In this document: piece after piece, positions 22,385-26,889 of the stretch
Layout: each line of letters begins with the position of its first letter
How positions within the stretch are numbered: position 1 is the first letter of the stretch
NCBI GenBank assembly: GCA_021793215.1
Contig: JAJYTE010000013.1
Location: 1 to 57,476, forward strand
DNA from: Bacillota bacterium
Lineage (GTDB): Bacteria > Bacillota > Sulfobacillia > JAJZYS01 > JAJYTV01
DNA length: 57,476 nt
Direction of reading: 5' to 3'
Made by a program: the position numbers and the translations under genes
The notes under the pieces: generated by a model
Told to the model about the DNA's origin: nothing
Database searches by the model: none
The model's input: only the letters and a program-made list of their open reading frames with translations

Positions 22385-23803
22385 TTGGCTGACGAGAAGA
22401 TCGACGTCCTGTTCCTGGGCGGCGGCACGGGCGGCTACGAGGCCGCGATCCGCGCCGCGCAGTCCGGGCTCAAGGCGGCTGTGGTGGAGAAGGAGAAGGT
22501 CGGGGGCGTGTGCCTCCACAAGGGCTGCATTCCATCGAAGGCGCTCCTGCGCACGGCGGAGATCGCCGCGACCATGCGCGAGGCGGAGGCGTTCGGGATC
22601 GCGGCGGGCGCGCCGCAGGTGGACTTCGCGAAGGCCCAGGAGCGCAAGCAGAGGATCGTCGACCAGCTCTACAAGGGCGTGCAGGGGCTTTTGAAGCGCG
22701 CGGGGGTCACGGTCTACGAGGGCGTAGGCACGCTGATGCCGCCCTCCATCTTCGCGCCGGCCGGCGCCGTCTCGGTCGAGCGCCCGGGCGCGGAGCGCGA
22801 GCTGCTTTCCCCGGACCACATCGTGATCGCGACCGGTTCCTCCGCACGCGAACTGCCTGGCCTGCCGTTCGACGGCAAGAAGGTCATCTCGAGCGACCAC
22901 GCGCTCTTGATGGAGAAGCTTCCGAAGGACGTCATCATCATCGGGGCCGGCGCGATCGGCTGCGAGTGGGCGTCACTCTACAACGACCTCGGCGTCGAGG
23001 TGCAGCTCGTCGAGGCGCTGCCGCGCCTCCTGCCGCTGGAGGACAAGGACGTGTCGGACCAGCTGCAGCGCCTGTTCACGCGCCGCGGCATCGACTGCTA
23101 CCCCGGCCACGCCGTGCTCCCCGAGAGCTTCAAGGTCAAGGGGACGCGCGCCTCGATCGACATCGAGGGCAAGGACGGCAAGAAGACCCTCACGGCGGCC
23201 GTCATCCTCGTCGCGATCGGCAGGAAGCCCAATAGCGACGGGATCGGCGTTGAGAATTTCGACAAGGTCCGGCTCGACCACGGCTACATCCAGGTCGACG
23301 CCCAGATGCGCACCGGCGACCCGCGCATCTTCGCGATCGGCGATGTGATCGGCCACCTGCAGCTCGCGCACGTCGCGGTGCACGAGGGGCTGACGGCCGT
23401 GGCCGCGATCCTCGGGGAGAACCCGCCCGGCGTCGACTACGACCGCATGCCGCGCTGCACCTACACGCGGCCCGAGGTCGCATCCGTCGGGGTCACCGAG
23501 GAGCAGGCCAAGGAGCGGGGCCGCAAGGTAAAGGTGGGCAAGTACTTCTTCAAGGCGAACGGCAAGGCTCTAATCTACGGCGAGGAGGACGGCTTCGCGA
23601 AGCTCGTCGCGGACGCGGAAACGGGAGACCTCCTCGGCATGCACATCATCGGGCCGCACGCGACGGACCTGATCGCCGAGGGCACGCTCGCGATCGAGTT
23701 CGACGGTTCGCTCTACGACCTCCAGGAGGTCGTGCATGCGCATCCAACGCTCTACGAGATCCTGAACGACGCGGCCCTGGCCGCCGACGGGAAGATGGCC
23801 TAA
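22385..23803 (+). CDS. lpdA: Dihydrolipoamide dehydrogenase
   Basis: A 472-residue FAD/NAD disulfide oxidoreductase. FLGGGTGGYEAA is the FAD-binding glycine motif. GGVCLHKGCIPSKALL contains the redox-active disulfide. IIGAGAIGCEWASL is the NAD site. DPRIFAIGDVIG is the second FAD contact, and VHAHPTLYE gives the catalytic His-Glu pair. It regenerates lipoamide in 2-oxoacid dehydrogenases or the glycine cleavage system. No E1 or E2 gene is nearby, so the partner complex is unknown. TTG 22385 follows GGGAGGGAC; a GC hairpin (22353-22371) lies just before that site. Confidence 0.94.
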   Translation: MADEKIDVLFLGGGTGGYEAAIRAAQSGLKAAVVEKEKVGGVCLHKGCIPSKALLRTAEIAATMREAEAFGIAAGAPQVDFAKAQERKQRIVDQLYKGVQGLLKRAGVTVYEGVGTLMPPSIFAPAGAVSVERPGAERELLSPDHIVIATGSSARELPGLPFDGKKVISSDHALLMEKLPKDVIIIGAGAIGCEWASLYNDLGVEVQLVEALPRLLPLEDKDVSDQLQRLFTRRGIDCYPGHAVLPESFKVKGTRASIDIEGKDGKKTLTAAVILVAIGRKPNSDGIGVENFDKVRLDHGYIQVDAQMRTGDPRIFAIGDVIGHLQLAHVAVHEGLTAVAAILGENPPGVDYDRMPRCTYTRPEVASVGVTEEQAKERGRKVKVGKYFFKANGKALIYGEEDGFAKLVADAETGDLLGMHIIGPHATDLIAEGTLAIEFDGSLYDLQEVVHAHPTLYEILNDAALAADGKMA

Positions 23804-23808
23804 GGGAC

Positions 23809-23843
23809 GCGAGGGCCCCCGCGCGAAGCGCGGGGGCCCTCGC
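23809..23843 (+). terminator. GC-rich hairpin after lpdA
   Basis: GCGAGGGCCCCCGCGC / GCGCGGGGGCCCTCGC around a short GAA(G)-type loop, immediately after the stop codon and 20 bp before the next gene. There is no T-run, so it may be an attenuator or an RNA-stabilising structure instead of a full terminator. Confidence 0.6.
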
Positions 23844-23862
23844 CAACAGGGAGGCGAAGCGG

Positions 23863-25248
23863 ATGGAGTTGACCCTTGCGCCGGAGCTGCGGCCGCTCGC
23901 CGGCGGGCAACGCGCGCTCGGAGCGGCGGGGACGACCCTTCGGGAGGCGCTCGAGGGCCTGCGCGCGGCGCACGGCGCGCTCCTCGCGCGCATCGTGATG
24001 GACGGGCAGATCGCCCAGGACGTCGACATTCTCCTCGGGGGACGCGACCTGCGGCTCTGCGGCGGCCTGCGCGCCCCGCTTTCGCCCGATGCGTCGGTGG
24101 ATGTCCGGCTTCTTCGCCCGGAGGCGGTCTTCGGCGGGATGGAGCGCTACATCCGGCAGGTCATCCTCTCGGAGGTGGGCGCCCTGGGGCAACTGCGGCT
24201 CCGGCGCGCGAGGGTTCTGGTGGTCGGCGCGGGGGGCCTCGGGGCCCCCGTCCTGAGCTACCTGGCGGCGGCCGGCGTCGGGCACCTCGGGATCGTCGAC
24301 GGAGACCGCGTGGAGCGCTCGAACCTGCACCGCCAGCCGATCTACCGCGACGGGGACGTCGGCGAGCGCAAGGCGGACGTTGCGCGCCGCGCGCTCCTCG
24401 CCCTGAATCCGGACATCGAGGTCGACGCCCTGCCCGTCTACCTGACGGCCACGAACGCGCTCGGAACCCTGCGGGGGTACGACCTCGTCGTGAACGGGTC
24501 CGACAACTTCCCGACCCGCTACCTCGTGAGCGACGCCGCGACGCTGCTCGGGCTGCCCTGGATCGACGGCTCGATCCTGCGCTTCGAGGGGCAGGCGGCG
24601 GTCTACCTCCCCGGCGGAGGCTGCTACCGCTGCCTCTTCCCGACGCCGCCGCCGCCGGGCAGCGTCCCGAGCTGCGCCGAGGCCGGCGTCATCGGCGCGC
24701 TCGCTGGGCAGGTCGGCGCGATCCAGGCGCTTGAGGCGGTGAAGCTGATCCTCGGAGCTGGCGAGAGCCTCGCCGGCCGCCTGCTGGTCGTCGACGCCCT
24801 TTTCGCGCGCCAGAAGAGTTTCCCGATCCGCCGAGATCCCTTGTGTCCCGTCTGCGGCGACCACCCCACGCAGCACGAGCTGGTCGACTACGAGGCGTTC
24901 TGCGGCGCACCGTCGCCAGGGGGCCAAGTGCCAATGCTCGCACCCATCACGGCCCAGGAGGCCGAGGTGCTCCTGCGGACCGGCTGCGCGCAGTGGCTCG
25001 ACGTACGCCCGGCGTCCGCGCTCCCTCGGCCGACGATCCCGGGTGCCGTGCAGGTGCCGCTCGAGGAGGTCGCGACGGGTGACCTGCCGTTCGACCAGGA
25101 CCGGGAGATCGTCGCCTTCTGCGACATCGGGCAGCGCTCGCGGATCGCCGCGGACCTCCTGGGACAGCGCGGTTACCGGGCGCGCAGCCTGGAGGGGGGC
25201 ATCGTGTCCTGGCACGCCGCAGGGCTGCCGCTCGAGGAGGTGCCGTGA
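23863..25248 (+). CDS. Ubiquitin-like (MoaD/ThiS) - E1-like (MoeB/ThiF) - rhodanese fusion
   Basis: Three modules in one chain. Residues 1-92 look like a beta-grasp sulfur-carrier domain ending in EAVFGG (Gly91-Gly92), the position of a carrier diglycine. The E1 domain starts immediately with MERYIRQV. It has VVGAGGLGAPVLSYL for ATP binding, DRVERSNLHRQ, a likely catalytic Cys in SCAEAGVIG (about 271), and zinc Cys pairs in CYRC and CPVC. The C-terminal rhodanese domain has the persulfide loop FCDIGQRS. MoeZ-type E1-rhodanese proteins adenylate carrier C-termini and supply sulfur. Here the carrier is fused in front of its own E1. The next gene is a JAMM peptidase, which could free the diglycine end. 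ATG 23863 follows GGGAGG. Confidence 0.85.
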   Translation: MELTLAPELRPLAGGQRALGAAGTTLREALEGLRAAHGALLARIVMDGQIAQDVDILLGGRDLRLCGGLRAPLSPDASVDVRLLRPEAVFGGMERYIRQVILSEVGALGQLRLRRARVLVVGAGGLGAPVLSYLAAAGVGHLGIVDGDRVERSNLHRQPIYRDGDVGERKADVARRALLALNPDIEVDALPVYLTATNALGTLRGYDLVVNGSDNFPTRYLVSDAATLLGLPWIDGSILRFEGQAAVYLPGGGCYRCLFPTPPPPGSVPSCAEAGVIGALAGQVGAIQALEAVKLILGAGESLAGRLLVVDALFARQKSFPIRRDPLCPVCGDHPTQHELVDYEAFCGAPSPGGQVPMLAPITAQEAEVLLRTGCAQWLDVRPASALPRPTIPGAVQVPLEEVATGDLPFDQDREIVAFCDIGQRSRIAADLLGQRGYRARSLEGGIVSWHAAGLPLEEVP

Positions 25249-25631
25249 GGGTTCGGCTCGGTCCCGGACTACGGGCTGAGATGCTCGCGCACGCCCGGAG
25301 CGACCTGCCATGCGAAGCCTGTGGCTTGCTCGGCGGGCGGGGAGACGAACTGCTGCGCTTCGTCCCGTGCCGCAATGCGCTCGCGAGTCCCCGACGCTAC
25401 GAGATCTCCCCCGAGGAGATTCTCGCCGCGGAGCGCCGCTTCGCCGACGAGGGCCTCGAGCTGCGCGGCATCTTCCATTCGCATCCCGAGGGACCCGCCC
25501 GGCCATCGGACACAGACCTGCGGGAGGCCGCCTACCCAAAGGCCGTCTACCTGATCGCGGCGCCGAAGGAGGACGACCTTCGCGCCTTCCGGCTGACGTC
25601 CGGGGAGGTGCAGGAGGTTAGGGTCGAGTGA
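25245..25631 (+). CDS. JAMM/Mov34 (JAB) metallopeptidase
   Basis: A 128-residue JAMM-fold protein. The complete zinc motif is visible: Glu in PCEACGLLGG, and HSHPEGPARPSDTD, which is HxHx7Sx2D. Bacterial homologues such as Mec+ remove residues from the C-terminus of ThiS-like carriers. GTG 25245 overlaps the stop codon of the ubiquitin-like/E1/rhodanese fusion (GTGA), so the two are co-translated. The obvious inference is that it cuts after the internal Gly-Gly of that fusion or off a carrier conjugate. Cysteine or Moco/thiamine sulfur supply are possible pathways; an incomplete moeA gene ends the window. Confidence 0.88.
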   Translation: MRVRLGPGLRAEMLAHARSDLPCEACGLLGGRGDELLRFVPCRNALASPRRYEISPEEILAAERRFADEGLELRGIFHSHPEGPARPSDTDLREAAYPKAVYLIAAPKEDDLRAFRLTSGEVQEVRVE

Positions 25632-25767
25632 CCGCCGGACGTCGGTCCACATGGACGTGGGAGCGTGCGACAGGTGGCCGTCTCCTCACCAAAGCACAGG
25701 TGAGACCTTCCAAGTGGCCCAGCGCCGCGACGCGTGCGCGGCGCCCGGTCGAAACGGGGGACACTCT

Positions 25768-26889
25768 ATGCTCGAAGCGCTTGCGGACGAGCTTTGGATC
25801 GCTTGGCAGCCGATCTACAATCTTCGCTCGGGTTCGATCTGGGGTCACGAGGCGCTGATCCGGGGACCGAAGGGCCAACCGTTCGAGACGCCTCAGGAGC
25901 TCTTCGAGCTGGCGCGGCGCGAGGGCGTCGAGGAGCAGTTCGAGGTGCGATGCCGCGAGCTCGCGTTCGAGAGCGCGGCGAGGGATCTCGCACATCCTGG
26001 CGTCCTTTTTGTGAACGCTGACCCGCGCTTCGTCGGTACGCCGATGCTTCCGGTTGGCGGCGCGTGGCTAGCCTCTCGCACGGTCGTGGAGGTGTCCGAG
26101 TCGTCGCCGCTGTTCGACGACCCCCAGGCGCTGCAGGTGCAGGTCGCGGAGTGGCGCCGCCAGGGTTGCCGCATCGCGCTCGACGACTACGGCTCCGGCT
26201 TCGCGGGGCAAACGGCGCTCTTGGCGCTGCGGCCCGACGTCGTGAAGATCGACAGGCTCCTTACCTGCGGCATCGACAGTGACAACTGGCGTCAGGAGAT
26301 CGTCTCCGCGACGGTGCACATGTGCTCGGACCTCGGAGTGGCCGTCATCGCCGAGGGGATCGAGACGCCGGAGGAGCTCAACGAACTCTTGGCGCGCGGC
26401 GTCTCGCTCGGGCAGGGGTTCCTGCTCGGGTCTCCGGGGCGGCGACCGAGCAGAGAGCGGCTCTCGGTCCGGGCATTGTACCCGGATCCACCCGAACCGG
26501 CGGGGGATCCCGATGTGGATCAGGGCCTGCCGCGCTTCGCGGTGGATCCCTCGCGTCGGATCGTCTCGTGGAGCGCGGAGGCGACCGAGCTGACCGGACG
26601 CAGCGCGCAGTCTGTCGTCGGCATGGCCTGCTGGCTCAGCGGCGTCGACCATCGCGACGCGGAGGGACATCGGCTCTGCTTCCGCGCCTGCCCCCTTGTC
26701 ACCGCGATGCAGACGGGCTCCCCGCAGGAGGCGACTGTGTACCTGCGTACGGCGAGCGGCAAGCGCGAGCGCATGACGGTGCGAGCGCACCCGATCCTCG
26801 GGCGGCGCGGCGAAGTGGTGGGTGCGGTGGAGAGCTTCGTGCCGCAGTCGCTCGCACGGCGCGGTCCGCCAAGCATCGTCGGAGGCTGA
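25768..26889 (+). CDS. EAL-domain c-di-GMP phosphodiesterase with C-terminal PAS domain
   Basis: A 373-residue cytosolic protein. The EAL domain (about 1-240) shows GHEALIRGP, the metal Asn in LFVNADPRF, Glu in VVEVSES, DDYGSGFAG, DVVKIDRLL and AEGIETPEEL. All catalytic positions of active EAL phosphodiesterases appear present. The C-terminal ~120 residues look like a PAS fold (FAVDPSRRIVSWSAEATELT), with Cys residues in CFRACPLV that could bind a cofactor. A PAS domain on the C-terminal side is a less common order. ATG 25768 follows CGGGGG. It may oppose the GGDEF protein at 0.6 kb. Confidence 0.9.
   Translation: MLEALADELWIAWQPIYNLRSGSIWGHEALIRGPKGQPFETPQELFELARREGVEEQFEVRCRELAFESAARDLAHPGVLFVNADPRFVGTPMLPVGGAWLASRTVVEVSESSPLFDDPQALQVQVAEWRRQGCRIALDDYGSGFAGQTALLALRPDVVKIDRLLTCGIDSDNWRQEIVSATVHMCSDLGVAVIAEGIETPEELNELLARGVSLGQGFLLGSPGRRPSRERLSVRALYPDPPEPAGDPDVDQGLPRFAVDPSRRIVSWSAEATELTGRSAQSVVGMACWLSGVDHRDAEGHRLCFRACPLVTAMQTGSPQEATVYLRTASGKRERMTVRAHPILGRRGEVVGAVESFVPQSLARRGPPSIVGG

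Follow-up and report, generated by a model that had tools for sequence, protein, structure and literature searches.

Can a ubiquitin-like domain that is translated as the N terminus of an activating enzyme still act as a sulfur carrier? This question is raised by a locus in a 57,476-nucleotide stretch of DNA from a Bacillota bacterium (GenBank assembly GCA_021793215.1, contig JAJYTE010000013.1), hereafter the window, in which one open reading frame encodes a ubiquitin-like (Ubl) domain, an E1 and a rhodanese and is followed by a gene for a JAMM peptidase (Table 1). The first-pass annotation proposed that the pair is a self-contained sulfur-transfer or conjugation system, in which the JAMM protein could free the carrier by cleavage after an internal Gly-Gly. 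Comparison with related genomes points instead to a derived, tail-less member of a family of CysO-MoeZ type fusions.

Table 1. Features of the fusion-JAMM locus (positions in the window)
Feature	Position	Strand	Details
Dihydrolipoyl dehydrogenase (lpd)	22385-23803	+	TIGR01350, 2.1e-157; upstream of the fusion
Ubl-E1-rhodanese fusion ORF	23863-25248	+	ATG start, 461 aa; common to 9/9 family relatives
N-terminal MoaD/CysO-like beta-grasp domain	23863-24111	+	Residues 1-83; without the conserved carrier tail
Short disordered linker	24112-24141	+	Residues 84-93, with Gly91-Gly92 and Met93
Gly91-Gly92 codons	24133-24138	+	Directly before Met93, the start of the E1 domain
E1/ThiF adenylation domain	24142-24867	+	PF00899; MoeB/MoeZ/Uba4 type
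Rhodanese domain	24949-25221	+	PF00581; active-site Cys420 (FCDIGQRS)
JAMM/MPN+ metalloprotease, Mec/desampylase type	25245-25631	+	128 aa, GTG start

Domain organization of the fusion protein and its JAMM partner

Domain profiles bore out the annotated architecture. Residues 96-330 matched ThiF/E1 (PF00899, E = 4.8e-77) and residues 363-453 matched rhodanese (PF00581, E = 2.6e-12); both Pfam cut-offs were reached, and the score against the MoeZ equivalog NF005902 was 336 bits (cut-off, 647). In structural comparisons, the E1 part aligned with MoeB (1jw9; Z 33.4, rmsd 2.3 over 232 residues) and with Uba4 (6yub; Z 31.3), the E1 domain taking up all of the Foldseek and VIA-align rows obtained for the fusion protein. 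Two zinc CxxC pairs (C254/C257 and C328/C331) and the Cys of the VPSCAEAG loop (C271) are present in the E1 domain and form invariant columns in the alignment of the relatives, in which C420 of the rhodanese is nearly invariant.

Residues 1-83 have a beta-grasp fold of the ThiS/MoaD/CysO kind. Taken alone, this segment had no Pfam match; it matched the SAMP1 profile NF041918 (6e-6) and, in the range of 1e-7 to 5e-6, the CysO/MoaD-like structures 1v8c (1.2e-7), 4n6e and 3dwg (5e-6), and it could be aligned with the AGG-bearing carriers and fusions described below. AlphaFold2, run with a 29-row alignment, modeled the fusion protein with a mean pLDDT of 89.8, residues 1-83 forming an ordered alpha/beta domain (pLDDT ~95) whose order of strands and helices fits a beta-grasp. 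The pLDDT fell below 50 over residues 86-100, the stretch that holds the Gly-Gly. Re-initiation of translation at Met93 was considered, as a GGAGG lies ~14 nt upstream of its ATG, and was rejected because this Met is shared by one relative only.

The JAMM gene overlaps the fusion by 4 bp (GTGA), as annotated. Its product scored above the cut-off for Prok-JAB (PF14464, 1.4e-24), also matched NF041370 (1.7e-27) and the structures 2kks, 2kcq and 5lda (JAMM1), and possesses the catalytic E, HxH and SxxD residues, which are conserved among relatives. The window's family comprises 10 genomes, including the source genome, from two genera, nearly all of them drafts. Both the three-domain architecture and a JAMM gene next to it were found in 9/9 family relatives, indicating that neither is due to chance; in the class, a JAMM gene lies downstream of the fusion in 20 of 22 genomes.

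The gene order lpd-fusion-JAMM was also kept in all nine family relatives; in another family of the same order (the same-order family), lpd was not seen beside the pair. lpd is the constant neighbor of the operon, whose neighborhood has no direct tie to Moco genes. The locus differs from bacterial Ub-like conjugation (E1-E2-JAB) operons, since its E1 carries a rhodanese and the fusion-JAMM pair was not seen to have an E2-like neighbor. Between lpd and the fusion, positions 23809-23843 form a perfect 16-bp GC hairpin (dG -47.4 kcal/mol with flanks, z -5.6) without a T-run, which is possibly a terminator, an attenuator or an RNA-processing stem. Scanning of positions 23600-26000 gave neither a sigma-70-like promoter nor a T-run terminator.

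The carrier tail in the window's family and in wider relatives

Outside the window's family, 34 of 34 fusions examined had an [A/S]GG motif, with a linker between it and the E1. Of these fusions, 22 were from class genomes and 3 from further genomes of the phylum; the remaining 9 loci, from other records and taken from among the matches listed, include Chloroflexota, Gemmatimonadota, Ruminococcus, Fibrobacter and Succinivibrionaceae, so that the phylum spread is a sample of these matches and not a census. In the alignment, a 'PA[MI][AS]GG'-type tail comes before the linker and the E1 in the same-order family, as it does in the remainder of the class. None of the nine family relatives has the conserved tail: the AGG residues are gone from the family, and its linker is ~10 or more residues shorter than in the tailed fusions. 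The linkers of the relatives ('LVRAPLRDM', 'VRPLPQDGQAV', 'LREARLSASST', 'PYRPDPLSPGQA' and others) are devoid of GG, and Gly91-Gly92 is private to the fusion of the window. The first-pass annotation had named lack of conservation of the internal Gly-Gly as grounds for refutation, and this applies to the gene of the window, as none of its nine closest homologues has the Gly-Gly.

Based on the family's own rate of GG dipeptides, 1.4-1.7 occurrences would be expected by chance in the ten family linkers and 1 was observed, which, together with its absence from the relatives, indicates that the Gly-Gly is no more than chance. The preceding residue is Ala or Ser in 46 of 46 carrier tails, the carriers being GG-bearing ones chosen by tail pattern within the compared loci, but Phe in this fusion. 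As annotated, the Gly-Gly lies beside the E1, in the shortened linker.

A tree built from 58 E1 rows united the window's family in one clade (99/95), with the AGG-bearing same-order family as its sister (99/96), and placed both families within a wider clade consisting mostly of AGG fusions. Because the family is nested among AGG fusions, the loss of the tail is most simply explained as a single, derived event. Pairwise dN/dS values, which are rough since synonymous sites were partly saturated, were 0.40-0.54 for the Ubl domain in the window's genus, versus 0.09-0.23 for the E1 domain in that genus and 0.14-0.27 for the Ubl domain in the sister genus and the same-order family; for the few sites of the tail in the window's genus, they were ~1 or above. 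The values for the sister genus indicate that the domain does something there. Judged from these alignments, members of the window's family would have no C-terminal Gly-Gly of the conserved kind available for adenylation. Without a terminal Gly-Gly, the cleavage product that would arise in the nine relatives would not be chargeable in the manner of known carriers.

The operonic cysteine synthase

The resemblance to CysO and Mec that had been pointed out for this locus was well founded in the class: in addition to the JAMM gene (20/22), a CysM-like cysteine synthase gene follows the fusion in 16 of the 22 class genomes, as it does in the same-order family. To judge by their genes, the class operons are CysO-MoeZ-CysM-Mec cysteine pathway sets in which the carrier and the E1 are fused. 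No operonic cysM was found in any of the 10 genomes of the window's family, in which the JAMM gene lies directly after the fusion or overlaps it. In a tree of cysteine synthases, the operon CysMs of the class formed one group (93/94) with all of the cysteine synthases of the window's family outside, indicating that loss of cysM is more likely than its relocation, for which the tree offered no support. The closest cysteine synthase of the family contains EPTSGNTG, versus EATSGNTG in the operon CysMs.

Since the Gly-Gly is not conserved and the operonic cysM has been lost, the proposal of a self-contained carrier-E1-rhodanese system is probably wrong for this gene. Release of the carrier by the linked JAMM, as originally proposed, agrees well with the wider family, with its [A/S]GG tails (34/34) and, in the class, JAMM genes (20/22), but probably does not apply to the fusion of the window.

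Other carriers in the genome

The E1 of the fusion is the only ThiF above cut-off in the genome, and a Prok-JAB profile search likewise gave one protein above cut-off, the JAMM protein of the locus. A MoaD-MoaE fusion gene adjoins moaA, and its product has an intact junction, 'IPPVSGG', before MoaE; MoaD followed by MoaE was also found in family relatives. The genome encodes six PF00384 molybdopterin oxidoreductases and no ThiG. With molybdopterin needed, a single E1, a single JAMM and MoaD locked in the MoaD-MoaE chain, the E1-rhodanese and the JAMM protein would most simply be used for Moco.

A standalone ThiS-family carrier ends in 'RAISGG' (L054, G000:C14:90946-91206); its gene is located directly downstream of a gene for a BNR-like repeat protein and not by cysM, and standalone carriers of this type occur in several relatives. 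One molybdopterin oxidoreductase gene (G000:C32:9672-10943) contains a single in-frame TGA, a feature shared by many relatives, and is a candidate for a selenocysteine formate dehydrogenase.

Possible roles of the fused Ubl domain

The reading that we hold to be somewhat probable, every catalytic step and substrate of which we infer, is that the JAMM protein frees MoaD from MoaD-MoaE, that the E1-rhodanese charges MoaD and that the fused Ubl domain is a retained non-carrier. The ancestor, as reconstructed from the relatives, would have had a carrier with an internal AGG on the E1-rhodanese, encoded together with CysM and a JAMM resembling Mec. That JAMM presumably cut after the Gly-Gly, freeing a carrier that would have been thiocarboxylated and used in cysteine synthesis. 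In the window's family, the tail of the carrier and the cysM gene of the operon would then have been lost, so that the fused domain is probably no longer adenylated at a C-terminal glycine, and this beta-grasp domain would have stayed on the E1 as a part without carrier function. Both the E1-rhodanese and the JAMM protein would now most likely serve the other carriers of the cell: the JAMM protein would cut MoaD-MoaE after VSGG, releasing MoaD; the E1 would adenylate the freed MoaD; the rhodanese would supply persulfide sulfur; and the MoaD-thiocarboxylate would make molybdopterin, the standalone ISGG carrier being charged by the same E1. Conservation of the active residues of the E1, the rhodanese and the JAMM protein is consistent with this scheme. 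The Gly-Gly that directly precedes Met93 in this fusion counts against it, as do the strong constraint on the Ubl domain in the sister genus and the lack of Moco genes linked to the operon in its neighborhood. The JAMM protein could still cut the fusion, since HvJAMM1 is reported, as cited in PMC8832034, not to need a diglycine on linear fusions.

Three alternatives were weighed against MoaD-MoaE processing. Cleavage by the JAMM protein after Gly92, followed by adenylation and thiocarboxylation of the freed 92-residue carrier by the E1-rhodanese and donation of its sulfur, would suit the location of the Gly-Gly in a linker predicted to be disordered, just before Met93, the overlapping gene for a JAMM with an intact active site, and the AGG-bearing relatives, which fit the scheme. 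We nevertheless regard it as quite improbable for the window, as the Gly-Gly is at chance level and absent from 9/9 family relatives, follows Phe and not the Ala or Ser of the 46 other carriers, and lies in a tail under no visible constraint, and as cysM is gone. Scarcely more probable is that the operon still acts in cysteine synthesis with an ISGG carrier and a cysteine synthase encoded elsewhere, the JAMM protein releasing cysteine like Mec. The standalone ISGG carrier of this genome and several relatives and the cysteine synthase genes of the genome would provide the components, but the family's cysteine synthases fall outside the operon-CysM group, the closest one has EPTSGNTG and not EATSGNTG, and the carrier gene adjoins a BNR-repeat gene and not cysM.

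The fused Ubl domain may, finally, be a permanent regulatory or structural domain needed for E1 activity, for example by docking the JAMM protein, the rhodanese or an E1 dimer. The predicted fold is kept (pLDDT ~95), purifying selection on the domain is strong in the sister genus (dN/dS 0.14-0.27) and the fusion is retained in 10/10 family genomes; against this stand the relaxed constraint in the window's genus (0.40-0.54) and the fact that neither a partner nor a surface was found. We consider such a role unlikely, if less so than the two preceding alternatives.

Relation to known systems

The CysO-MoeZ-CysM-Mec pathway of cysteine biosynthesis in Mycobacterium tuberculosis (PMC3227635) shares with the locus a CysO-like carrier fold, an E1-rhodanese resembling MoeZ, if below the equivalog cut-off, and a Mec-type JAMM, and with the same-order and class relatives also an adjacent CysM. 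Here, the carrier and the E1 are a single chain, and the window's family has neither the carrier tail nor the operonic cysM. In the part of Iyer et al. 2006 considered here (PMC1779556), row 4b describes operons for an E1-rhodanese and a JAB, the carrier not always being present, and row 4c adds a cysteine synthase. The window's locus, with an E1 fused to a rhodanese and an adjacent JAB peptidase, resembles row 4b, whereas the same-order and class relatives correspond to row 4c with the carrier and the E1 fused. The carrier genes of these operons are separate, and that part of the paper mentions no CysO-like carrier fused to an E1-rhodanese. It does describe, in thiamine operons, an N-terminal Ub-like domain fused to ThiF and distinct from ThiS, as in Campylobacter jejuni, which was inferred to be a non-carrier because a separate ThiS is present. 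The trait in common is an E1 that begins with a beta-grasp domain; in the fusion of the window, this domain is of the CysO/MoaD kind and occurs with a rhodanese and a JAMM and without ThiG.

MoaD-MoaE processing has been studied in several organisms. In Deinococcus radiodurans, DrJAMM cuts a MoaD-MoaE fusion (PMC8832034). Cleavage after Gly82 of M. tuberculosis MoaX is required, Gly81 is needed for the cut, and the protease was not identified in that study (PMC4326299). In Haloferax, HvJAMM1 reactivates SAMP1-MoaE (PMC4443979). As with DrJAMM and MoaX, the genome of the window has a MoaD-MoaE chain with an internal Gly-Gly that would have to be freed for molybdopterin synthase, and it also has a JAMM; the cleavage shown in Deinococcus is a prediction here, where the JAMM is encoded with an E1.

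The AGG-bearing relatives may be natural pro-carriers encoded beside a protease that could mature them, and they offer a simple model of how the processing of ubiquitin-like precursors by JAMM proteases may have begun. In the window's family, a sulfur carrier without the reactive tail has stayed on its E1, which may parallel, on a small scale, the ubiquitin-fold domains that have been built into E1 enzymes.

Partner-fused and extended carriers in related genomes

At locus L080 (G013:C53), and also in G006, G008, G012 and G014, ThiS is followed directly and in frame by ThiG; at L080, an AGG lies at the internal junction. Where ThiG is present in this order, ThiS is therefore also made as a fusion and, counted together with the other fusions, up to three carriers would be joined to partners in cells with one Prok-JAB protein. 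We suggest, tentatively and with some doubt, that one JAMM matures several partner-fused carriers in this order (CysO-MoeZ, MoaD-MoaE and ThiS-ThiG), one of which, with its tail lost, would in the window's family belong for good to the shared E1 without acting as a carrier.

Short extensions after the Gly-Gly were seen in the standalone carriers L128, L123, L115, L151 and L030, with the C-terminal ends GGR, GGRA, GGGWA, GGSR and GGAPRPRFG; on this pattern, they look like pro-carriers needing trimming. In Wolinella (HcyS/HcyD), a JAMM reportedly trims a residue after the Gly-Gly. At locus L173 of Halanaerobium saccharolyticum, a short ThiS-like domain is joined to ThiF via 'MGGGAF', with a JAMM gene downstream, in what looks like an independent origin of a carrier-E1 fusion.
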